NCBI RefSeq assembly: GCF_000307105.1
Contig: NC_018645.1
Coordinates: 2,937,501-3,001,500, forward strand
Direction: 5' to 3'
DNA from: Desulfobacula toluolica Tol2
Lineage (GTDB): Bacteria > Desulfobacterota > Desulfobacteria > Desulfobacterales > Desulfobacteraceae
Length of the DNA stretch: 64,000 nt
Shown: positions 8,385-48,449 of the stretch, piece by piece
Layout of the letters: every line of letters starts with the position of its first letter
Position numbering within the stretch: position 1 is the stretch's first letter
The notes under the pieces: model-generated
Told to the model about the DNA's origin: nothing
The model's database searches: none
Seen by the model: the letters and a program-made list of their open reading frames with translations, nothing else
Position numbers and translations under genes: made by a program

Positions 8385-10118
8385 ATGGAAATTAATCATT
8401 ACGAGTTTAAATATGGCGAATTTGGAGACACCACGGGAGTTCAAATCAACTTACGCGGTTTTGATGTTCTTCGCTTCAATAATATTAGCAAAGGCACAGC
8501 CTTTACCATAGAGGAAAGGTCCAGGCTTAAACTCAGCGGTTTTCTGCCTCCAAGGGTAAAAACACTTGAAGATCAGATCAGATCAAGCCTTAAAATTGTT
8601 GATGAAAAGAAAAGTGACATTGAAAAATTCATTTATATCAGAAGTCTTTATGACAGAAATGTTGTACTGGCCCATGCCGTAATTGCAGACAATGTTACCA
8701 AATTTTTACCCATTATCTACACCCCCACAGTGGGGCTTGCCTGTCAGCAGTACTCTTCAATATACCGGGGAGCAAATGGTGTGCATTTTTATCCGGGAAA
8801 TATTGATTATGCGGAATATGTTTTGCGCAACTATACGGACCAGGATATCAGGATTGCAGTGGTAACGGACAACCAGGGAATTTTAGGTATTGGAGACCAG
8901 GGGGCCGGGGGTATCCCCATCTGCCTTGGGAAACTGATGCTCTACACTCAGGGTGCCGGCATCGCTCCCTGGCACGGCCTTCCCGTATCCCTTGACGTTG
9001 GAACCGACAATGAAGACCTGTTAAATGATCCCAACTACCTGGGCTGGCGTCACAAACGCCTCAAGGGAGAAGAATATGATGCGTTTATCAAAAAATTTGT
9101 AACTGCGTTTAAAAAGAACTTTCCCCATGCACTGTGCCAGTGGGAGGACTTTTCAAAACAGACGGCGTTTACGGTCCGGGATACATATCTGAACCACCTG
9201 ATCTCCTTTAATGATGACATTCAGGGAACCGGTTCCATTGCTCTTGCCGGAATTATTGCAGCCATGAAAGTAAAAAAAGAAAAAATGACGGATCAGGTGT
9301 ATCTGGTAAATGGTGCCGGTGCAGGCGGCATTGGTATTGCCGAACAGATCCAGGTGGAGCTTATTGCCCAGGGCATGGATGAAGCAGATGCCATTGCCCG
9401 GATTTTCACAATGGATTCAAGAGGGGTGGTCACCGCTGACAGGGATCTTGAGCCTTACAAGAAAAAATTTGCAAAAGATTCAAAAACACTTGCCTGGCTG
9501 ACATCATCTGAAGACAATACACTTTTGAATGCAGTCAAGCATGAAAAAGTAACCGTATTGATCGGAACATCAGGACAACCCGGCCTGTTTACACAACAAA
9601 TTGTTCAAGCAGTCGGTAAGAATACGGACAGACCCGTTATTCTGCCATTGAGCAATCCCACGAGCAAGGCCGAGGCCCTGCCCAAAGATGTCTACGAATG
9701 GACCAACGGTAAAGCGCTTATGGCAACGGGTTCTCCTTTTGATCCTGTTGATCACGACGGCAAAGAGTATAGAATCGGACAAATGAACAATTCATTTGTT
9801 TTCCCGGGTGTAGGGCTGGGGGTTGTGGCATCCGGTGCCACCGAAGTATTGCCGGTCTTTTTTTCAGCGGCAGCCCATGCGATTGCCGAGTTTGTCAGCG
9901 AACAAGACATTAACGACGGTATTTTGTGTCCTCCACTGGATCAGTTAAAAGAGGTCTCTTTGGAAGTTGCAAAACGAGTCGGCGCAGAAGCCATCAAGGC
10001 AGGCGTTACCAAAAAAGATTGTTTTTTCTCAAAATTCAAACACAAAAATGATCCGGAACGGCTGAACACCCTTGTGGATAAAATGCGCTGGAATCCCCAG
10101 TATTTTGACCAGATTTAA
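8385..10118 (+). CDS. maeA: NAD-dependent malic enzyme
   Basis: A 577-aa malic enzyme that oxidatively decarboxylates malate to pyruvate. It has the large-type (about 560-aa) architecture. Diagnostic features are IYTPTVGLACQQYSSIYR, VVTDNQGILGIGDQGAGG (substrate and metal region), FNDDIQGTGSIALAGI, the nucleotide-binding GAGAGGIGIAEQI, and PLSNPTSKAEALPKDVYEW. NAD preference is inferred from family membership, not from a decisive residue. It follows acnA with a 225-bp gap that contains a hairpin and A/T-rich sequence, so it probably has its own promoter. AAGGA lies about 14 bp before the ATG. Confidence 0.94.
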   Translation: MEINHYEFKYGEFGDTTGVQINLRGFDVLRFNNISKGTAFTIEERSRLKLSGFLPPRVKTLEDQIRSSLKIVDEKKSDIEKFIYIRSLYDRNVVLAHAVIADNVTKFLPIIYTPTVGLACQQYSSIYRGANGVHFYPGNIDYAEYVLRNYTDQDIRIAVVTDNQGILGIGDQGAGGIPICLGKLMLYTQGAGIAPWHGLPVSLDVGTDNEDLLNDPNYLGWRHKRLKGEEYDAFIKKFVTAFKKNFPHALCQWEDFSKQTAFTVRDTYLNHLISFNDDIQGTGSIALAGIIAAMKVKKEKMTDQVYLVNGAGAGGIGIAEQIQVELIAQGMDEADAIARIFTMDSRGVVTADRDLEPYKKKFAKDSKTLAWLTSSEDNTLLNAVKHEKVTVLIGTSGQPGLFTQQIVQAVGKNTDRPVILPLSNPTSKAEALPKDVYEWTNGKALMATGSPFDPVDHDGKEYRIGQMNNSFVFPGVGLGVVASGATEVLPVFFSAAAHAIAEFVSEQDINDGILCPPLDQLKEVSLEVAKRVGAEAIKAGVTKKDCFFSKFKHKNDPERLNTLVDKMRWNPQYFDQI

Positions 10119-11069: not shown

Positions 11070-13400
11070 CTAATCCATAGATATCACCTCAAAATCAATC
11101 ACATCAAAGCTGCCTGCTTCATCTGCTACTGACAATTGATAGGTGCCGGGCAGCGGCATGGGCAAAACACCGGCGCTGCCGGGGTTGATAACAGCCACCA
11201 ACTTTTTGTTTAAAAACCAGTAATATTTTCCCTGGCCACCCAACGCTGTTATGGGGATGGACGGAGGGGTAGCCTGACCCGGCGGGCGGGTTAAAATGCT
11301 GTTATTGAACACTGAGGTGATCTGTACGGGGTTGCCGGGGAAGCTTGCAAGATCAGGGCATTTTTGTGATGGCGGCGCAATCAGTTTGTTCCTTCGCCAT
11401 GAAGGAGGCAACCAGGGTTCAGCACCTTGCGGCCACACCCCGATGCGAATTTTTTTGATTCCCCCGCATGACGGCTGTGCCCTGTTGCCGTTTTCATCAA
11501 TCCAGAATGTTTTTAAAAGAGGGTCAAACCCCCTGGTTGCAGAATTTAAGGTTAAGGGTATCTGGTTGTCCAATATCCATGCATCATGCTGAACAAAGCA
11601 ATTTGTTATTGTCCGGGTTTTCGCCGACCCCAACGGCCAGCAGATTTTTATCGGTTGAACACTTGACGGCGGTTTTTTGATAAAATCAGTGAGCGGCAGG
11701 CTTTCAAAAATCCTGCGAAGCAGAGGAATGGCTGTCACGGCACCATATTGTCCCGGACAAGGAGAGCCGTCCGGTCTTCCCACCCAGACACCGGCCACAT
11801 AATCTCCCATGATGCCAAGGGCCCAGGCATCCCTGAACCCGTAACTTGTGCCGGTTTTCCAGGCCATGGGAATATGTCCTGACAACCGGTTGATGCCTTC
11901 AAATCCGGGCATGGGTTGCGCCAGGATTTTACTGATAATCCAGGCCGCACCCGGTGACATCAGGTATCGTTCCTGATCCGCATCTTGATCCGCATCTTGT
12001 TTTAACAGTTTTGGTTTTCCCGTAATGCCGTCCCTGGCAAGGCCGGTATACAGCGTCACCAATGATTCCAAGTTGGTGCCCGCCCCTCCCAGTATGATAC
12101 TCAGGTTGGGTTTGCCGGACAGTTTTATCCGGGCACCGGCATTGATCAGGCGGTCGTAAAATTTTTGGGGGCCATACGCCTCCAGCACCTGGACAGCCGG
12201 AACATTTAATGACAATCTCAATGCCCTGGCCACGGTGACAGGCCCTGAAAACCCTTTGGAAAAATTGCCGGGTTCGTATTCTTTTTGAAACCGAGGGGTA
12301 TCCAGCAGCAGGGAGTGGGAATGGATCAGGCCTTCATCCATGGCAAGGCCGTACAAAAACGGTTTCAAAGTTGAGCCCGGCGACCGTATGGCACGGACCA
12401 TATCCACATGGCCCTTTCGCTTTGTGCTAAAAAAATCAGCCGACCCCACATAAGCCTGCACTTCAAGAGTTTTATAATTTACGACCAGGGCGGCTGCCGA
12501 TTGTTCGTCTGAAAGTCCTGCAACATAGTCCCTGACAATATCTTCGGTTTGGATTTGAAGATCATAGTCCAGTGTGGTCGTTTTTTTTGATGACGGGTTG
12601 TCGGTGCCAAAATACAATCGTCGTGATGCCAGGGGGGCGGTCATGGGAGGGACAAAGCGCAGCGCAGCCACGGGTTCTTTTTTGGCCGCCCTTACCTGTT
12701 CGTTGGTCCACACCTTAAAAAACGCCATTCGATCCAGCACTTTATCCCTGGCTTTTCGCGCCCGTTCCGGATGCCGGTCAGGCCTGTAAAAACTGGGTGC
12801 CTGGGGTAATACAGCCAGAAGAGCGGCTTCTGCACAAGACAATTCCATGGCCTGTTTTCCAAGCCAGGAAAAGCATGCGGTCTGCACCCCTTCAATGTTG
12901 GAGCCAAACGGTGCCAAATTCAAATAAAGCGTCATTATCTGGTCTTTGGTCAGGTGAATTTCCAGCTGAAATGCCCGAAGCATTTGTAAAATTTTCCCGG
13001 CCAGGGTTCTTTGATTGGGATGCAGCAGTCTTGCCACCTGCATGGTCAAAGTAGAACCACCGGACACAATTTTACCGGCAGCTATATTTTGAAAACAGGC
13101 CCGGATAAAAGCGAATGGGTTTACACCTGGATGGCTGTAAAACCACCGGTCTTCATAGGTCAACAACGCCTGAAGGTACAAAGGGGATACGTCTGTCAGG
13201 TCTGTCGGATACCGCCATACCCCGTTTTTATCTGCAAATGCGCGAAGGGGTGTGCCGTCTTTTGCCGTAATCAAGGTTGAACAGGTCTTTGTTTTTAAAT
13301 TCAGCGGATAGATCCTGTCCAGTCCAGACAGACAAACAATAACGACCGCACTTGCTAAGCAAACGGAGACAACGCAGTATTTAACGTGTCGGCTTTTCAC
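11070..13400 (-). CDS. pbpC: Penicillin-binding protein 1C
   Basis: A 776-aa bifunctional peptidoglycan synthase of the PbpC class. It has an N-terminal membrane anchor (about residues 8-27), a GT51 glycosyltransferase domain with the catalytic Glu in TYEDRWFYSHPGVN (E83) and SGGSTLTMQVARLL, a transpeptidase domain with the active-site serine in RSPGSTLKPF, SLN, and KTGTS, and a C-terminal PBP1C domain of about 90 residues. In many proteobacteria pbpC is directly downstream of the alpha-2-macroglobulin gene, which protects the periplasm. Here that gene ends at 16483 on the same strand and about 3 kb of accessory genes lie between. Confidence 0.95.
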   Translation of the reverse strand: MKSRHVKYCVVSVCLASAVVIVCLSGLDRIYPLNLKTKTCSTLITAKDGTPLRAFADKNGVWRYPTDLTDVSPLYLQALLTYEDRWFYSHPGVNPFAFIRACFQNIAAGKIVSGGSTLTMQVARLLHPNQRTLAGKILQMLRAFQLEIHLTKDQIMTLYLNLAPFGSNIEGVQTACFSWLGKQAMELSCAEAALLAVLPQAPSFYRPDRHPERARKARDKVLDRMAFFKVWTNEQVRAAKKEPVAALRFVPPMTAPLASRRLYFGTDNPSSKKTTTLDYDLQIQTEDIVRDYVAGLSDEQSAAALVVNYKTLEVQAYVGSADFFSTKRKGHVDMVRAIRSPGSTLKPFLYGLAMDEGLIHSHSLLLDTPRFQKEYEPGNFSKGFSGPVTVARALRLSLNVPAVQVLEAYGPQKFYDRLINAGARIKLSGKPNLSIILGGAGTNLESLVTLYTGLARDGITGKPKLLKQDADQDADQERYLMSPGAAWIISKILAQPMPGFEGINRLSGHIPMAWKTGTSYGFRDAWALGIMGDYVAGVWVGRPDGSPCPGQYGAVTAIPLLRRIFESLPLTDFIKKPPSSVQPIKICWPLGSAKTRTITNCFVQHDAWILDNQIPLTLNSATRGFDPLLKTFWIDENGNRAQPSCGGIKKIRIGVWPQGAEPWLPPSWRRNKLIAPPSQKCPDLASFPGNPVQITSVFNNSILTRPPGQATPPSIPITALGGQGKYYWFLNKKLVAVINPGSAGVLPMPLPGTYQLSVADEAGSFDVIDFEVISMD

Positions 13401-13454
13401 TATCAGGTTTTTTCATATCTTTTTTAAACTGTTTTGTGACCTGTAATGTTGACA

Positions 13455-13715
13455 TTAAATTCCCAGGTCATCGTATAAGTTGGAAGGACTTCTATATTCA
13501 TCCAGATCCTTATCTTTCATAGCAGCAACAGAAACATCATTGAGTTTTTTCTCTGGTATCTTAACAGGAAAAGGAAGACCGTTTTGAAAGGTTATCTGTT
13601 TATAAAAAACACTAATTGCTTGAGATGGGGTTAAGCCCAAAGACGCCAATATGTTTTCAGCATTACTTTTCAATTCAGCATCCATTCGAACTGATATGGT
13701 CGTAGTTTTAGCCAT
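13455..13715 (-). CDS. RelB/DinJ-family antitoxin without visible toxin partner
   Basis: An 86-aa protein starting TTTISVRMDAELKSNAENIL, followed by GLTPSQAISVFYKQI and NGLPFPVKIP. This is the ribbon-helix-helix plus toxin-binding tail pattern of RelB/DinJ antitoxins. Partner toxins (RelE/YafQ) usually lie immediately downstream, but there are only 54 bp before pbpC, so the toxin has been lost or never came along. It lies between pbpC and the DGR-target FGE segment. Confidence 0.82.
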   Translation of the reverse strand: MAKTTTISVRMDAELKSNAENILASLGLTPSQAISVFYKQITFQNGLPFPVKIPEKKLNDVSVAAMKDKDLDEYRSPSNLYDDLGI

Positions 13716-13736
13716 TATATCCTCGCTATTATTTAT

Positions 13737-13777
13737 TGTCTATTTGTTATACTTTGAGAACACAATGAATAGACAAA
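13737..13777. promoter_or_regulatory. Inverted repeat upstream of the RelB-like gene
   Basis: Perfect 9-bp arms (TTGTCTATT / AATAGACAA) separated by 23 bp lie just upstream of the antitoxin start at 13715. Antitoxins of this family autorepress through such sites, so this is a candidate operator. Confidence 0.45.
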
Positions 13778-13793
13778 TTAATAAAAAAATTTT

Positions 13794-13880
13794 AAGCGCC
13801 CAGCACGCATCCGGATCATGATGCCCCGACCCTTCCGCTGCTGCGCCTGCTCCAGGGTACGGGCCATCCTGACCGGATGC
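13794..13880 (-). repeat. Hairpin-forming 3' flank of DGR target (copy 1)
   Basis: Downstream of the FGE segment lies a region with outer arms GCATCCGG (13807-13814) and CCGGATGC (13873-13880), extended by imperfect pairing. It begins with AAGCGCCC at 13794. About 100 bp here match the sequence downstream of the paralogue at 46156-46243 almost base for base. DGR targets are known to have hairpin or cruciform elements after the variable repeat that aid retrohoming; this element is at the right place but larger than the described ones. Confidence 0.55.
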
Positions 13881-13901: not shown

Positions 13902-14036
13902 CTACTGCCGGACTTGGGGAAGACAGAGCCGAAAACCCAGGTCACCGTTGCGGTAATCAGCAGAATCCCCGAAACGGTTCGCCGCACGAACGCTCCCGCG
14001 GTCGTTGCACCAGCCACCGCCACGGCACACGCGGGA
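13902..14036 (-). repeat. Putative DGR variable repeat VR1
   Basis: A 135-bp segment ending at the stop codon of the FGE ORF. It aligns without gaps to 46263-46397. The first 27 bp and last 39 bp (coding strand) are identical between the copies. The central 69 bp (13941-14009) differ at 18 positions. Codon pairs that differ (copy 1/copy 2) are tgc/ctc, aac/ggc, gac/agc, cgc/ccc, agc/ggc, gtt/gtg, aac/tac, ttc/gac, tac/agc, aac/ctc, ggt/agt, gac/ggc. Ten of these twelve codons end in C in both copies. This is what adenine-directed mutagenesis of AAC-rich template codons produces. Confidence 0.82.
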
Positions 14037-14363
14037 AACTCCACCGGAAGTCACCGCAGGATTATTGCGTCCGTGTTTTGAATAAGCCTTTTTATCATAC
14101 ACATCTTCGCACCATTCCCATACATTGCCGCTCATGTCAAAAATGCCAAGGCCATTGGAAGCTTTCGTACCCACTTTATGAGTTTTGTATCCGCTGTTGG
14201 CATCATACCATGCCACAGCATCTGCATCATTTCCACCGGCATAGGTCTGATCCTTTCCTCCGCTTCTGGCAGCATATTCCCACTGGGCTTCCGTGGGCAG
14301 CTTGAATGTATTGCCGGACTGTTGATTAAGCTTTGTAATAAACTTTTTGCTATCATCATACAT
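13902..14363 (-). pseudogene. FGE-sulfatase (C-type-lectin fold) domain, detached C-terminal half of caspase/FGE protein, DGR target
   Basis: A 153-aa ORF from ATG 14363 to stop 13902 encodes the C-terminal part of a formylglycine-generating-enzyme-type domain: FKLPTEAQWEYAARSGG, GLGIFDMSGNVWEWCEDVYD, VCRGGGW, then the variable segment and GFRLCLPQVRQ. The intact paralogue (46263-48449) carries this domain fused behind caspase and PEGA domains. Here a deletion of roughly 245 codons plus a frameshift separates it from the caspase ORF. The ATG overlaps the caspase stop by 8 bp, so coupled translation as a split protein is possible. The catalytic cysteines of true FGE are not evident; this family generally serves as a display scaffold. 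Confidence 0.72.
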
Positions 14364-15411
14364 AATCTTTAAGCCTTGCCATAAAATTGTATGTGCCCGG
14401 ATCAAGATCCAATGGAGAAATACCTTTAAACCTGTTATCTACAAAGATATCCGCTCCTTCAGGATCGGATATAATGCTCAATTTCCCTTTGCTGCCGCCA
14501 ATAACATCAGGTGTGGTAATTGTGGTGGTGCCCTGAGCAACAAAAATAAATTCCCCGCCCATGTCTCCGGTTCCTTTGATCGGATTACACAGAGGCGATT
14601 GATCGGAATTGTTGGTAATAATCGGGGCAATGTCCGTGTAGATCTCCCGGGTGGAAATATAGGGTTTTGTATTCTTTTCAAGTTTTTTGATCAATTGATA
14701 CGCAAATACTGAATGCCCGGCGCTCCCGGAATCCGAAACCGGGGTTTTATTGCCCGAGGTCATGCCCCACCGGCTCTTTTCATTATATAAATTAAGATAA
14801 TATTTATCATCTATCACAGTGGGCATGGCCCTGGCCCGGCCAAACAGGGTGCCGGAATAACATGAATCCGAAATCAACAGCACATGCTTTGATTTCATGC
14901 TTTTCATTACTTTTTGCACCAGGGTATTATCCAGGTATGTGACAGGATTTCCGCCTTTGGCATCCACCGGTATCCACCAGCCGTCATTCAACGTCCTGTC
15001 AATATCACCATGACCCGCATAATAAATAAGGACACTGTCTTCGGGTTCTGCCGTATGGGTGATTTTCCTTAAAGCAGTATAAATGGCTTCTTTGGTGGCT
15101 TTTTTATCCAGCAGCAGATCTGTTTTCCTGTTTATTTTAAACCCATACCGATTTTCCAGAACGTCTGCCATTGCCTTTGCATCGTTTAAAGGGGTTTTCA
15201 GATCATTAATTTCAGGATCCTCATAATTTTGGATACCGATGATCAGGGCCCGATAAACACCTATTTTTCCGCTCTTATGATTCAGGCTTGATGTGTTTCT
15301 GATAACAGACCGGTTGTCCTGACCGAAGCAGATGCCCTGGAAAGGGAATATGAATACGATAATTATTATGGAGAGTATGGAATAAAAACATTTCATCTTG
15401 TTTATCTTCAT
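14356..15411 (-). pseudogene. Caspase-family (C14) protease with truncated PEGA domain, N-terminal half of split caspase/FGE gene
   Basis: A secreted caspase-fold protease of 351 aa. It has a signal peptide (residues 1 to about 31), YRALIIGIQNY, IYYAGHGDIDR with the catalytic His, and LLISDSCYSGT with the catalytic Cys. A PEGA domain begins at GKLSIISDPEGADIFVDN but stops after about 45 residues. The sequence is very close to residues 1-345 of the intact paralogue at 46263-48449. An ATG at 15450 is possible, but 15411 matches the paralogue start and has AAGGA upstream. A promoter motif shared with the sigma-factor locus lies at 15476-15486. The catalytic dyad is intact, so the product may still be active. 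Confidence 0.8.
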
Positions 15412-15475
15412 CCTTTTTTTAAAAGACATGCCCTGTTTTGCCGCCTTCATGCCGTTGCCCCTGACTATGATTTGT

Positions 15476-15486
15476 TTAGACGGACA
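15476..15486 (-). promoter_or_regulatory. TGTCCGTCTAA promoter-like motif
   Basis: On the minus strand this reads TGTCCGTCTAA, with an A-rich purine block (AAAAAGAG) 15 bp upstream. It lies 65 bp before the ATG at 15411. The same motif is found before the intact paralogue and several other genes of the accessory locus. Confidence 0.55.
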
Positions 15487-15604
15487 TGGGGCAATTATAG
15501 TCTCTTTTTATATCTAACAGGATGGGGTGTTTCAAGTAATATTTGACTTTTATAAAATCACGGCACAAATCTCGTTTAAGATGGTTCAGACATTGATGCT
15601 ACTC

Positions 15605-15634
15605 TTGACCTCATATATCAAAACAACGTATAAA
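15605..15634 (+). promoter_or_regulatory. Promoter of higBA-like pair
   Basis: TTGACC and TATAAA are separated by 18 bp. The -10 box ends only 6 bp before the ATG of the toxin gene, so transcription should start at or next to the start codon and give a leaderless mRNA. No Shine-Dalgarno sequence is present. Confidence 0.55.
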
Positions 15635-15640
15635 TAAACT

Positions 15641-15913
15641 ATGAATCAGGTAGTCATCGGCAAAAAGGCCCGAAAACAACTTAAAAAGCTCCCTTTACAC
15701 ATTGTGGCTAAACTTCAAAGATGGGCGGAAGACATTGAAGAATTTGGAATTAAAGAAATCAGGAAAATATCTGGTTATCATGATGAACCTTTGCATGGTG
15801 ACAGGAAAAACCAGCGGTCAATCCGGTTGTCCAAAGCATACAGGGCTTTGTACATTGAATATAAAAACAGTATTATCATTGAAATAATAGAGGTAAACAA
15901 ACATGAATACTGA
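15641..15913 (+). CDS. HigB-like (RelE/ParE superfamily) toxin
   Basis: A 90-aa basic protein with KKARKQLKKLP, the central GYHDEPLHGDRKNQRSIRLS and YRALYIEYKN. These match HigB/RelE-type mRNA interferases that cut translated mRNA on the ribosome. The toxin gene precedes the antitoxin gene, the order typical for higBA, and overlaps it by 11 bp. It lies divergently from the split caspase gene, within the insert between pbpC and the alpha-2-macroglobulin gene. Substrate and activity are inferred from family. Confidence 0.85.
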   Translation: MNQVVIGKKARKQLKKLPLHIVAKLQRWAEDIEEFGIKEIRKISGYHDEPLHGDRKNQRSIRLSKAYRALYIEYKNSIIIEIIEVNKHEY

Positions 15914-16202
15914 AAAATACGGCACCAAAGAAATGGAAAGAGATTTCGGTCCGATTACTTTCGGACGCGCTCTTTGGTCCTATAGGAAATGTGAAGAGAT
16001 TTCACAAAAAGATTTTGCATTGATAATAGGGATATCCACACAAGCTCTTTGTGATATCGAAAAAGGACGCCGCATTCCCTCTCCAAAAAGAGCCGCCAAA
16101 ATTGCGAATCAGATAGGAGAACCGGAAAAATTGTGGATCAGGCTTGCGTTTCAGGACATGTTAAGAAAAGAACAGCTTGATTATACAGTTTCGGTTGCAT
16201 AA
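15903..16202 (+). CDS. HigA-like antitoxin (XRE-type HTH)
   Basis: A 99-aa protein with a helix-turn-helix at about residues 30-70 (EISQKDFALIIGISTQALCDIEKGRRIPSP, abbreviated QKDFALIIGIS to CDIEKGRR). It overlaps the toxin gene by 11 bp, so the two are co-translated. It should neutralise the toxin and repress the shared promoter. The 280 bp after its stop hold no gene that I can support. Confidence 0.88.
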   Translation: MNTEKYGTKEMERDFGPITFGRALWSYRKCEEISQKDFALIIGISTQALCDIEKGRRIPSPKRAAKIANQIGEPEKLWIRLAFQDMLRKEQLDYTVSVA

Positions 16203-16482
16203 TTAATGCGGATTGCTCGTATTGTATTTTTTTATATAAAAATCTTAAAAAATTCATACAGAAACTTTCAATCTTTGCTGTGAGCAAACCAGGGTGAATT
16301 CTCCAAGCCTTCACCAGATTATAACCTTCAATTCCATACACGCAGTCGGTAATCAGGTCAGTTTACAAGTTTTCTCACATTCCGGCATTTTGGAAAATAT
16401 TGCAGGGTACTGACAGCGTCGTAAATTTTGTTTTGAATCTCCCGGATAAGGAGAGTGCCTGGTTCTCGCATCATGGGACATA

Positions 16483-19400
16483 TCACGGCCTGCTCACCTG
16501 CATCAGGGCCGGGCCACTGCCAATCCCCCGGATATACGGTTTATACATATCCTCTGCCAGGGGCGGCGGCACAAGATAATCACCAGGACTGACAATGCGT
16601 ACCGGATAGAAAATCCTCAAATCATCCTGGGCAGGAATATTCAATGCCGCCACAAACCGGTCATCCCGGTACTCCGTATGACGGGTATCAAATGCATTAT
16701 GCCACTGAACAACGGTTTTTGTATCGACCTGTATCTCATCAATGACCATGCTGCCGGCAAGGTTGGGATCTTCAAGTTCAAGACAGGCCGGAAGCAGATC
16801 AACAATCAAACCGTTTGGCATTCTTTTATCCGCCGTAAAGGCAAGCTCAACAAGCAACCTGTCTCCGGATTTAAATTGCCCGGATTTTACGGGCATTTCA
16901 ATGGGTATGCCGGCGGGTGTCAGATATCTTCGAGAAATTTTTACACCATATGCCTCGGGTCTGGGTTTCTGGGCAGGATATCCGGCCAGGGTAACAGACA
17001 GATAAAGATCCGTCCCTGCCGTGTTAAGTACCTTGAATCCATCAGCGGATTGCCCGTCAACACTGACAAATTGTTTTTGACGATCATGCACAAGATCAAC
17101 AATTTTATCACCAGCACTTATTCTTGCCTGCCAGAGTTCTGTGCTGTTTTTCACGGCAATGCTGCCGGCCAGTACAAGGGCATTTCGTTCCTGTGTACTG
17201 AGCCATTGACGGTCATAAAGTTCATCCTGGAGTCCGAAAAGAAAATGAGAAGCTTTTTCAAAAGAAGGATAAAAACTGGACACAAGATAACAGGCTGCGG
17301 CAAGATCCCTTATATCACTGCCGTAATCACCATAATATATATGATTTTCGCGCGGGTGTTCGCGGCTGTTGTTCAATGCTTTTTCCAAAGCACTTGCCCC
17401 AAGGGCATCATCCCCGCTCAGATAAAGGGCAAGTCCGGCATGAACAAACCCAAGTGTTCCTGTTAAATCATTTTTTGCCGCATTATATAAAGCCCTTGCA
17501 TCCCCAAGAGAGATGCCCTGAACACGGGCCAGGACAAAGGCTGCATACACACGGGTTGCCGCCCTGTAATGCCGTTTGTCCGTATAGTTCATCGGCCTTA
17601 TGGTTGAGGGTCGTTTCACATACTTCTTGAGCCGGTCCAATGCTTTGGCAAGGGCTGTGGGCGGCACTTTATATCCGGCCTGTTGTGCATGAAGTAAAAA
17701 ATCAGTCACATATGCGGTCAGCCAATAGCTTTCAGGACTTTTTGCAGACCAGAGGCCAAATCCGCCAGTGGTTTTTTGTTTCTCCATTAACCGTTGAATC
17801 CCCAGGACAACCTTTTTGTTTGTTTGCTCAGAAGTCTGTCCGGTCAATCCCAACTCGGCAATATCAAACGCATTTAAAATAACATGAGGATAAATCCCGC
17901 TGGTGATCTGTTCAAGGCAGCCGTATGGATAGGCATTGAGCTGCTGAATGTGATCGGAAAGATTGATGGGTGGAAAAGCGCTGATTACAGCCTGAACGCC
18001 AATTGTTTCTTTGATCAGGCTGTTCATTTGGGAAGGCTTGATGTCAAATGTTTCACCCGGCTTTAAATGGGATCTGAACACTTTGGTGGTCGCGGGATAT
18101 GCCGGTCGTGTATCAATAAACCAGGTTCGATTAAGAGTTTGTTTTTTTCCATCCACAACCAAACCGTTGATAAAAAGATTTATCTTTGAACGGCCCAGCT
18201 GCTGTTCTGAAAAAACCGGGAAAACAAAGGCGTTTTTTTGATTTGGATCAAGACTCACTTTGTGTGATGTTTGTCCAAGGGCTTTGACAGGGCCTTGCAC
18301 ATCAAGATTCATATCAAGTTGCTGGCGTGTCAGGGTAAGATTGTGAACATCGATCACCACCTGGCTTTTATCCCCCATGGATAAAAATCTGGGCATGGTA
18401 ATCTGGGTGACCAGGGCCGACGCAACCGTCACCTCCTGTTCCAGTGATCCGTAATCCTGACCTGTATACGCTGTGGCCATCACCCGGATACTGCCGTTGA
18501 ACTCGGGTATGAAAAGACTAAAGTGCGCCCTGCCCTTTTCATCCACCTTAACGGCATTCCTGGAAATGGATACGATCTGCACATCTGTGGCGGGTTTGTC
18601 ACCGCCCCGGGTGAGCGCTGCCACATCACCGCCAAACCGTTGTGTTGCCCATGCACCCTTGTTGGCTTCTATCAATTTCTGGTAAACATCATGAATCTGC
18701 GCGCCATATTTGCGCTTCTGAAAAAAATAATCATGAGGAGAAGGGGTTTTAAACCCGGTAAGGTTTAAAATGCCAATGTCCACTGCGGCAAGTGTAACAT
18801 ACGCATTTTCGGGTATAGACCCGTTGGCACGACTTACATCAACAAAGACATCCATGGTTTGACTGGGTTCTATTTTTTTGGGGACATCCATTTTAAGGGA
18901 CAGCTTTCGGCCGGTTCGATCCAATGGCAGATGAATCAGGCCGACAGACCGTTTGGGAAGCGTGCCGGTCCTGCTTTGCCCTTTTCGCACAATCAGGGCG
19001 GAGATGTACAGATCATGACGGTTCCAGGACGGATCAATTTTGATGTCAAACGCTTTGCCTTCAGCCGGTACTTTTATGGGCAGGGTCAGCAGATTGGTAT
19101 CTGATTCAACAAACAGATACCCGGAACCTGCCTCAGGTGCTTTGACCATTACCTTTGCCGTGTCACCCGGACCATAATGGGGTTTATCAAGGGTCAAATC
19201 CACCCTGTCGGGCCGATTGCCCCCACCGGATGACGGCATGCCATCAGGTTGCCACCCTGCCCAAAAACTCAAACTGGAAACAAGACCTGTAGACGGGTCT
19301 TTAATTTCAAGCCGGTATCCGCCCCACTTAACAGGTACGCTTACTTTGGCAGCACCGTTTTCAGGAACATCCACATTAAACTTGTCCACAGTATAAAACT

Positions 19401-46155: not shown

Positions 46156-46243
46156 CAGCGCCCGACCGGCATCCGGACCATGATGCCCCGACCCTTCCGC
46201 TGCTGCGCCTGCTCCAGGGTACGGGCCATCCTGGCCGGATGCC
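46156..46243 (-). repeat. Hairpin-forming 3' flank of DGR target (copy 2)
   Basis: Perfect outer arms GGCATCCGG (46168-46176) and CCGGATGCC (46235-46243), extended by imperfect pairing toward the inner ACCCT/AGGGT (46192-46196 and 46216-46220). It is almost identical to the region after copy 1 and lies 20 bp behind the stop of the caspase/FGE gene. Confidence 0.6.
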
Positions 46244-46262: not shown

Positions 46263-46397
46263 CTACTGCCGGACTTGGGGAAGACAGAGCCGAAAACCCA
46301 GGCCACTGAGGCGGCTATCAGCAGAATCCCCGTCACGGTACGCCGCACGCACGCCCCCGGGGCTGCCGAGCCAGCCACCGCCACGGCACACGCGGGA
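46263..46397 (-). repeat. Putative DGR variable repeat VR2
   Basis: The 135-bp partner of VR1, ending at the stop codon. The variable part is 46302-46370. Non-variable codons are identical to VR1 (27 bp before and 39 bp after), whereas the coding sequence immediately upstream (aagcatggccgt here, aaacacggacgc in copy 1) has diverged at silent sites. That contrast suggests recent homogenisation from a common template. Confidence 0.82.
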
Positions 46398-48449
46398 AGA
46401 CCCACCGGAAATCACCACAGGATTATTACGGCCATGCTTTGAATAGGCATTTTCATCATACACATCTTCGCACCACTCCCAGACATTGCCCAGCATGTCA
46501 TAAAGGCCGAAATCATTTGGTAAAAAACTACCCACAGGAGCTGCTGCTGCAAACCCGTCATTGCAATTGTGATTCAGCCAGGTAAAATTTGAAAATTGCT
46601 TTTTTGAGGTCACATCATGGACATTAGCGTACCTGCATGCCTGGTCAGGACCATCCCCCCAGAACCGTATGGTGGTGGTCCCGCCCCTGGCTGCATACTC
46701 CCATTGGGCTTCGGTGGGCAAAACAAAGCTTTGTCCTGCTTCCCGGCCCAACCACTTTGCAAAAGCTTTAGCATAATCCCAGGATATCATCACTAAAGGC
46801 TGGTCGCTGCTGTTCAGATTAACACCTTCATACTCTTTGCTGTCATGACCTGATTTAAACCGCCGGTATTGCCCATTGGTCACCTCATATTTTCCCATCC
46901 AGAAACCGTCCACACAGACCTCATGGCGGGGAACCTCATCATTATACCATTTTCCATAATTTTCCTTGCCCACTTCTTTTATCAAATACTGCTTTTCCTC
47001 TTGGGTCTGCCCCATATTGAAACACCCGCCCGGCACCCAGACAAACTCCATACCGGTGACAGGATCTGTCCAAGTGTCACCGGGACCGGGTTCCGAAGAT
47101 ACCACCCGTTCTTTTTCAAGCTCAACATACAAATCCACCCCTTCTCCTTCGGCAATCCGCACGGTTTGGGTCTTAGGAGCATACCCTGTTTTTGACACCC
47201 GTACAGTATATTGCCCTGCCGCAAGTTCCATGCCCTGGACATACCCGGATTTGATGTTAAGGATTTTGATGATGCTGCCGTCGGGCCGGGTGGTGACATA
47301 GAGTCTTCCTTTGGTTTCTTTCTTTTCAAAATAAAAGGTCACCATTGCTTTCCGACTGCTGTTCACCCTCACTGTTTTGTCAATGGCATCATATCCTGCA
47401 AGCCTTGCTTTGACCCTGTAATCGCCCGGCTCAATACTGTCCATATCCAGCGGGGATCTGCCTTTGAATTTGCCACCAACAAAAATGTCCGCTCCTTCAG
47501 GATCGGATATAATGCTCAGTTTGCCTTTGCTGCCAACAATAACATCAGGTGTGGTAATCGTGGTGGTTCCCTGAGCAACAAAAATAAATTCCCCGCCCAT
47601 GTCTCCGGTTCCCTTGATCGGATTACACAAAGGCGATTGATCTGAATTATTGGCTATGATCGGTGCAATGTCCGTGTAGATCTCCCGGGTGGAAATATAG
47701 GGTCTTGTATTTTTTTCCAGTTTTTTGATCAATTGATATGCAAATACGGAATGCCCCCGGCTGCCGGAATCCGAAACCGGGGTTTTATTGCCCGAAGTCA
47801 TGCCCCACCGGCTTTGTTCATTGTACAGGTTAAGGTAATATTTATCATCTATCACGGTGGGCATGGCCCTGGCCCGGCCAAAAAGAGTGCCGGAATAACA
47901 TGAATCCGAGATTAACAGAACATGCTTTGATTTTATGTTCTTCATTACTTTTTGAACCATGGTATTATCCAGGTATGTGAAGGGATCTCCGCCTTTGGCA
48001 TCCACAGGTATCCACCAGCCGTCATTCAACGTCCTGTCAATATCCCCGTGACCGGCATAATAAATAAGGATACTGTCTTCCGGCTTTGCTGTATGGGTAA
48101 TTTTCCTTAAGGCATTATAAATGGCTTTTTTGGTGGCTTTTTTATCCAGCAGCAGATCTGTTTTCCTGTTTATTTTAAACCCATATCGGTTTTCCAGAAT
48201 CTCTGCCATTGCCTTTGCATCGTTTAACGGGGTTTTTAAATCATCAATTTTGGGATCATCATAATTTTGGATACCGATAATCAGCGCCCGATAAATACCT
48301 AATTTTCCACTTTTATGATTCAGGCTTGAGGTATGTCTGATAATAGACCGGTTGTCCTGACCAAAGCAGATGCTCTGGCAGGCAAGTATGAGTGCGATAA
48401 TAACCATGGAGAATATGGACTGAAAAAATTTCATCTTGTTTGTCTTCAT
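46263..48449 (-). CDS. Secreted caspase-PEGA-FGE protein, intact DGR target
   Basis: A 728-aa protein with a signal peptide (1-30), a C14 caspase domain at about 50-300 (His134 in YYAGHGD, Cys184 in ISDSCYSG), two PEGA domains at about 308-375 and 380-445 (KLSIISDPEGADIFVGG; RLYVTTRPDGS), and an FGE-sulfatase/C-type-lectin-fold domain at about 460-728 (FVWVPGGCFNMG, MGKYEVTNGQYRRF, LPTEAQWEYAARGG, GNVWEWCEDVYD). The C-terminal 45 residues are the variable repeat, ending GFRLCLPQVRQ. The inference is a protease whose ligand-binding face is diversified by a DGR. A TGTCCGTCTAA motif lies 67 bp upstream. Confidence 0.9.
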   Translation of the reverse strand: MKTNKMKFFQSIFSMVIIALILACQSICFGQDNRSIIRHTSSLNHKSGKLGIYRALIIGIQNYDDPKIDDLKTPLNDAKAMAEILENRYGFKINRKTDLLLDKKATKKAIYNALRKITHTAKPEDSILIYYAGHGDIDRTLNDGWWIPVDAKGGDPFTYLDNTMVQKVMKNIKSKHVLLISDSCYSGTLFGRARAMPTVIDDKYYLNLYNEQSRWGMTSGNKTPVSDSGSRGHSVFAYQLIKKLEKNTRPYISTREIYTDIAPIIANNSDQSPLCNPIKGTGDMGGEFIFVAQGTTTITTPDVIVGSKGKLSIISDPEGADIFVGGKFKGRSPLDMDSIEPGDYRVKARLAGYDAIDKTVRVNSSRKAMVTFYFEKKETKGRLYVTTRPDGSIIKILNIKSGYVQGMELAAGQYTVRVSKTGYAPKTQTVRIAEGEGVDLYVELEKERVVSSEPGPGDTWTDPVTGMEFVWVPGGCFNMGQTQEEKQYLIKEVGKENYGKWYNDEVPRHEVCVDGFWMGKYEVTNGQYRRFKSGHDSKEYEGVNLNSSDQPLVMISWDYAKAFAKWLGREAGQSFVLPTEAQWEYAARGGTTTIRFWGDGPDQACRYANVHDVTSKKQFSNFTWLNHNCNDGFAAAAPVGSFLPNDFGLYDMLGNVWEWCEDVYDENAYSKHGRNNPVVISGGSSRVCRGGGWLGSPGGVRAAYRDGDSADSRLSGLGFRLCLPQVRQ

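Follow-up and report, generated by a model that had tools for sequence, protein, structure and literature searches.

In BPP-1, the diversity-generating retroelement (DGR) acts on a variable repeat (VR) at the end of the target gene, and homing requires a hairpin or cruciform just past the VR; the sequence of the stem can vary, as reported in PMC3240598, and HRDC is named there as an accessory locus. Other accounts describe a distal group of targets together with a mutated reverse transcriptase (RT) in Pseudogulbenkiania (PMC3521204) and targets with caspase domains in cyanobacteria (PMC7517822). Closer to the case considered here are certain isolates of Treponema denticola, whose target genes with VRs are accompanied by neither RT nor template repeat (TR), and which the authors, in the relevant part of PMC4891356, read as leftovers. 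In Thiohalocapsa PB-PSB1, as far as the cited part of PMC10907252 describes it, loci lack the RT or the TR and their targets remain. Our literature search found no paper on a DGR in Desulfobacula.

The window—the 64,000 nucleotides of Desulfobacula toluolica Tol2 analyzed here, all coordinates being counted from its first letter unless a contig is named—contains two segments that we take up in this light: VR1 (13902..14036, minus strand) and VR2 (46263..46397, minus strand). They align over 135 bp without gaps, with 18 differences, and each makes up the final 45 codons, stop included, of a gene, broken in the case of VR1 and intact in the case of VR2. The differences fall in 12 of the 45 codons, all between codons 9 and 31 (counting from 0 on the coding minus strand), and number 9, 8 and 1 at codon positions 1, 2 and 3; ten of the 12 variable codons end in C in both copies. 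Third positions are equal in 44 of the 45 codons; for the 117 bp immediately upstream the figure is 27 of 39, and the 135 bp upstream differ between the copies at 33 sites, 8, 9 and 16 by codon position. Each of these features—the gap-free match, the 18 differences in 12 codons with 17 at positions 1 or 2, the ten codons ending in C, and silent identity inside the repeat beside synonymous divergence upstream—had been claimed in a sequence-only reading of this DNA, and each was confirmed.

The gene that ends in VR2 (46263..48449, minus strand) is an open frame of 728 aa in which a domain search identifies caspase (Peptidase_C14), PEGA and FGE-sulfatase domains. The VR1 gene is broken. Its first ORF (14356..15450, minus strand) encodes the caspase domain and the start of PEGA; its second, in a different frame (13902..14405, minus strand), covers the FGE domain in its second half (96-253 of 255 profile positions) and carries VR1. 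That VRs lie at the ends of two caspase/FGE genes is thus correct as to the ends, and needs amending as to the gene at 13902, which is split in two. The FGE-sulfatase domain is detected at both VR-bearing ends (E 2.7e-50 and 8.3e-31). The N-terminal blocks of the two genes are 88% identical over 1158 columns, the VR1 gene is some 0.6 kb shorter between matched blocks (108 versus 725 bases), and the flanks have diverged. A fold search returned FGE structures plus, at rank 31, T. denticola variable protein 1 (2y3c), which a sequence search also lists among many FGE-fold proteins; the predicted protein model has a mean pLDDT of 72.5 overall and is of low confidence within the VR. Small ORFs flank the broken gene (13400-13797 and 15450-16483), and by eye these ORFs resemble a DinJ/RelB-type antitoxin on the minus strand and, on the plus strand, a RelE-like protein with an XRE-like partner. 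A further FGE-domain gene elsewhere in the genome (C1:106480-107304, L097) has an end that, by eye, is VR-like (RGGSWDYLPKFLRAAYRRRD...).

G039, a draft from the window's own genus (81% complete, 6% contamination), has a complete DGR cassette, VR-HRDC-RT-TR, at loci L039 and L103/L104. It comprises a TR, a DGR-type RT, an HRDC accessory gene and three FGE-domain genes that end in homologous VRs. One strand of contig C496 (L039) has an FGE target, an OmpA-like gene, a caspase/PEGA/FGE target, HRDC (158 aa), the RT (332 aa), the TR (8853-8987) and a caspase/FGE target. The RT is 100% identical to that of Desulfobacula sp. SI073_bin145, and a second RT, 84% identical, is present on contig C168; VR sequence in this draft is 75-82% like the inferred template.

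The sister TR predicts where the window VRs differ. Sorted by TR base, the differences fall at 16 of 34 adenines, 1 of 41 C, 1 of 38 G and 0 of 22 T—that is, at 16/34 adenines versus 2/101 other sites (Fisher p 1.1e-9). Six slid registers of the TR all gave weaker associations, the best of them (-6) with p 7.5e-6, a value that the repetitive AAC codons lead one to expect. The TR of another genus (G024) behaves in the same way over its first 114 columns, with differences at 16/29 adenines versus 2/85 other bases. Within the sister DGR, the three L039 VRs, taken in every pairing, differ from one another at 18 of the 34 TR adenines and at none of the 101 other bases; each has, besides, 3 non-adenine differences from its own TR. 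The earlier proposal that template adenines underlie every difference therefore stands, against the sister TR, for 16 of the 18. It fails at codon 12 (CGC/CCC in the window copies) and codon 15 (GTT/GTG), where the sister TR reads CCC and GTG; the CAC and GTA of the proposed template were thus guesses.

The sister TR is a relative's template, not the template of the window VRs themselves, for VR1 and VR2 have 13 and 11 non-adenine mismatches to it. Codon 41 is GTC in both window VRs and in the three sister VRs and GCC in the sister TR, by which token the window segments look like VRs, rather than templates. At 13 of the 34 sister-TR adenines, both window VRs carry the same non-A base (the figures for pairs of sister VRs are 3, 6 and 7). 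Either the lost TR of the window's own lineage had no adenines at these positions, or the two VRs go back to one diversified ancestor copy and have been re-homed only in part.

Each VR is followed, after a gap of about 20 bases between stop codon and stem, by a predicted stem-loop. That after VR1 (13807..13880, minus strand; DNA fold z -5.09) is a candidate DGR target hairpin; that after VR2 (46168..46243, minus strand; z -6.96) has a predicted main stem of 25 pairs; and for both, none of 200 shuffles was equally stable in DNA folding. The 95-bp element after VR1 is 94% like its counterpart after VR2, and homologous elements follow the three L039 VRs and one VR of locus L040. These relatives' copies fold less clearly (z -3.64, -2.56 for L039b, -1.52 for L039c, and -3.50, among the L039 and L040 copies). 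At locus L041 a hairpin of different sequence occupies the same position (z -10.63). Across the six homologous sequences, 92.7% of 150 pair cells are formed, versus 28-47% in slid alignments, and 27 of 500 shuffles attain the stem pairing of the set. Covariation was considered and rejected, there being no pair altered on both sides among the six. By analogy, the predicted stem-loops fit the hairpin requirement of BPP-1 set out in PMC3240598. A homologous TR from the same genus whose adenines predict the variable sites, and a stem-loop after each VR, lend strong support to the central claim of the sequence-only reading, namely that caspase/FGE genes end here in DGR VRs.

The core of the element is another matter. 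The genome (G000) is a single contig of 5,197,905 bp, rated 100% complete, and a TR and DGR-type RT had been expected somewhere in it; both were searched for over its whole length, and neither was found. When VR1 and the inferred template were run as DNA queries against all of it, no TR came up: apart from the VRs themselves, the matches were stray ones of 27 bases or fewer. One 27-bp match (C1:1670485, L003; 89%, E 0.007), which lacks a gene-end context, was dismissed as chance. RT-query searches of the whole genome found no DGR-type RT. Each of three such searches has 30 places among the matches listed. Frames of 412-446 aa account for 23 of them and frames of 206-223 aa for five; the remaining two are in frames of 347 and 980 aa. 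Any DGR RT ought to have headed these lists. Family models were run on four of the 30, one of each size kind. With 420.6 bits against a cut-off of 300, the 446-aa ORF passes as a group II intron RT; the 347-aa ORF falls slightly below that cut-off (296.4 bits), the 206-aa fragment scores 201.8 bits on the family model, and the 980-aa frame at C1:765384-765899 (L077), which has an RT domain, is UG5-nitrilase-like. To judge from size and score, the other 26 places are probably like those tested. The sister RT itself has no match in the genome at 1e-20; its best (E 4.7e-13) is to the group II-like 347-aa frame. That group II intron RTs might have served as the mutagenic enzyme is unsupported: at a motif that distinguishes RTs of the two kinds, the sister DGR RT has LGNLTSQ, and both tested ORFs, of 446 and 347 aa, have QGGPLSP.

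Two of these RTs are of some interest in their own right. In L077, the PADLOC model RT_UG5-nitrilase is matched (E 7.4e-179) by an 823-aa part of the 980-aa frame, a candidate defence RT. The 23 places in frames of 412-446 aa have near-equal scores and lie at about 2.36-2.43, 3.05-3.09 and 3.59-3.64 Mb of C1; one of them being a frame that passes the group II intron maturase model, they suggest an expansion of introns.

An HRDC query gave two partial matches in the genome, both within long ORFs (best E 0.0076), and tblastn of four proteins, BPP-1 Avd included, revealed no relics of RT, HRDC or Avd in the window (E 0.57 or worse). By eye, the DNA after the VR2 stem-loop shows short similarities both to the leader of HRDC in L039/L040 and to what follows the sister TR. 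As a deletion scar beside VR2 this was rejected; when ten post-TR stretches were compared with the window by BLAST, only the VR ends matched there among the best 30 rows. Absence of RT and TR had been named beforehand as refuting the DGR reading. Neither was found, nothing in this genome points to a DGR still at work, and of the two targets one is broken; past mutagenic homing is not refuted thereby. The sequence-only reading is thus supported in part.

The explanation we consider very probable is that a single HRDC-type DGR, to which both segments belong as VRs, once diversified two caspase/FGE genes at their ends, and that the genome has lost it since. The DGR RT would have copied the RNA of the TR, placing random bases opposite adenines, and the cDNA would have replaced the VR, beginning at its 3' end near the stem-loop. 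About a dozen codons would thus have been rewritten in the FGE-fold domain at the C-terminus of a protein with a caspase domain. Homing, we infer, took place in this lineage after the gene copies had diverged. The core—RT and TR—would have been lost later; since neither is found in the assembled genome, what remains is probably the leftover targets of a diversification system that is gone, and the VRs now appear frozen. Against this explanation count the variation of codons 12 and 15 at non-adenines of the sister TR, the 13 and 11 non-adenine mismatches to that TR, the 13 adenine sites with a shared non-A base, the failure to find a scar or relic of the cassette in the window, and, for the stem, the lack of two-sided covariation together with the 27 of 500 shuffles that reach its pairing. 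By analogy, the targets may have been sensors in conflict or cell death, as proposed for other DGR targets in parts of PMC10907252 and PMC7517822.

Could the DGR be split, rather than lost? The chromosomal targets, with their homing sites intact, would then be served in trans, and re-diversified at times, by a DGR outside the assembly—on a plasmid, a phage or other mobile element, or in other cells of the species. Silent identity at 44 of 45 codons suggests fairly recent homing, trans activity on incomplete loci is proposed for Thiohalocapsa in the cited part of PMC10907252, and related DGR RTs do occur on plasmids (18 records) and phages (75 records). Every one of these RTs, however, is less than 60% identical to the sister RT, two exact TR/VR patterns had no match in viral contigs, and one of the supposed targets is broken. 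We think a split element unlikely.

Loss of the core from this lineage also presupposes that the lineage once had it. A sister-RT match at 1e-20 is present in 15 of 86 family genomes, and VR- or TR-like DNA turned up in 8 of the 86, the window's genome included, when the inferred template served as query; six of these eight have an RT match, the exceptions being the window's genome and G077 (70% complete). Across the order, a match at 1e-12 was found in 5 of 389 genomes, the window's own included; none was closer than those of the family, and G039 was not among the matches listed. Of 582 pattern matches, 575 are relatives of the VR2 protein; 80 loci were kept, and a DGR-like RT (E 1e-10 or better) is present in seven, so for most of the FGE relatives that were kept, the DNA fetched contains no RT. 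DGRs are patchy, then, which lends something to the idea that this lineage never had a DGR and received its target genes, already diversified, by transfer from a relative that did. A similar alternative is raised for one T. denticola gene in the part of PMC4891356 consulted. Against this, neither the family nor the order searches revealed a donor with the same VR constant sequence, and the state of the two loci—88% N-terminal identity, diverged flanks, silently identical VRs—is more easily explained by homing after duplication; acquisition strikes us as very unlikely. The surface residues of FGE-type folds can vary, and two paralogous FGE domains are present, but that ordinary gene conversion and diversifying selection on a binding surface produced this pattern with no DGR at all is scarcely credible and was already disfavoured by the sister-TR test, as selection would not restrict itself to sites where the template of another genome has an adenine, leaving third positions alone in 44 of 45 codons, and conversion would have leveled the variable sites too.

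A draft genome that is 78% complete (G076) has two similar VR-like gene ends, on contigs C23 and C42 (L042, L043). They differ at 14 of 100 columns, and always at sister-TR adenines (14/31 A, 0/69 others). The sole RT match in this genome lies on a third contig, beside a different TR-VR pair, and no TR that matches the gene ends was found in the draft assembly. These may be a second orphan pair, in a genome that is a draft.

Surveys for DGRs that start from the RT, or from TR-VR pairs, easily miss genomes that have lost both. Here, the element was revealed by two VRs of one genome and tested on the template of a relative. This lineage seems to have ceased to diversify its caspase-fused FGE proteins, and a relative in the genus keeps the machinery; whether hypermutation of such proteins is dispensable thereby becomes an accessible question.

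Among the closest known systems is the DGR of the draft sister, whose VRs are homologous to those of the window and likewise sit on caspase/FGE or FGE genes, with homologous stem-loops behind them and TR adenines at the variable sites; it differs in having a TR and an RT, neither of which was found in the window's genome, and an HRDC gene, for which that genome gave two partial matches. BPP-1 has the same layout, with the VR at the gene end and the hairpin directly after it, but its accessory protein is Avd and its stem is 8 bp, in the cited part of PMC3240598, whereas the window's sister has HRDC and the predicted VR2 stem in the window has 25 pairs. Thiohalocapsa PB-PSB1 shares the reduced loci with surviving targets, whose domains are also conflict-system-like; there, according to PMC10907252, every class still has one locus that is complete, whereas none was found here. 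The leftovers of T. denticola share the VR genes without RT or TR, and these too differ from relatives' TRs mostly at adenines. As set out in the part of PMC4891356 consulted, the TRs compared there were of the same species; for the window, only the TR of a genus relative could be used, and two VRs were set against each other. The caspase fusion of the window's targets is also unlike the T. denticola genes described there. Orphan targets without RT or TR were therefore known before, from T. denticola (PMC4891356); the pair in the window is well supported, and ordinary in its mechanism.
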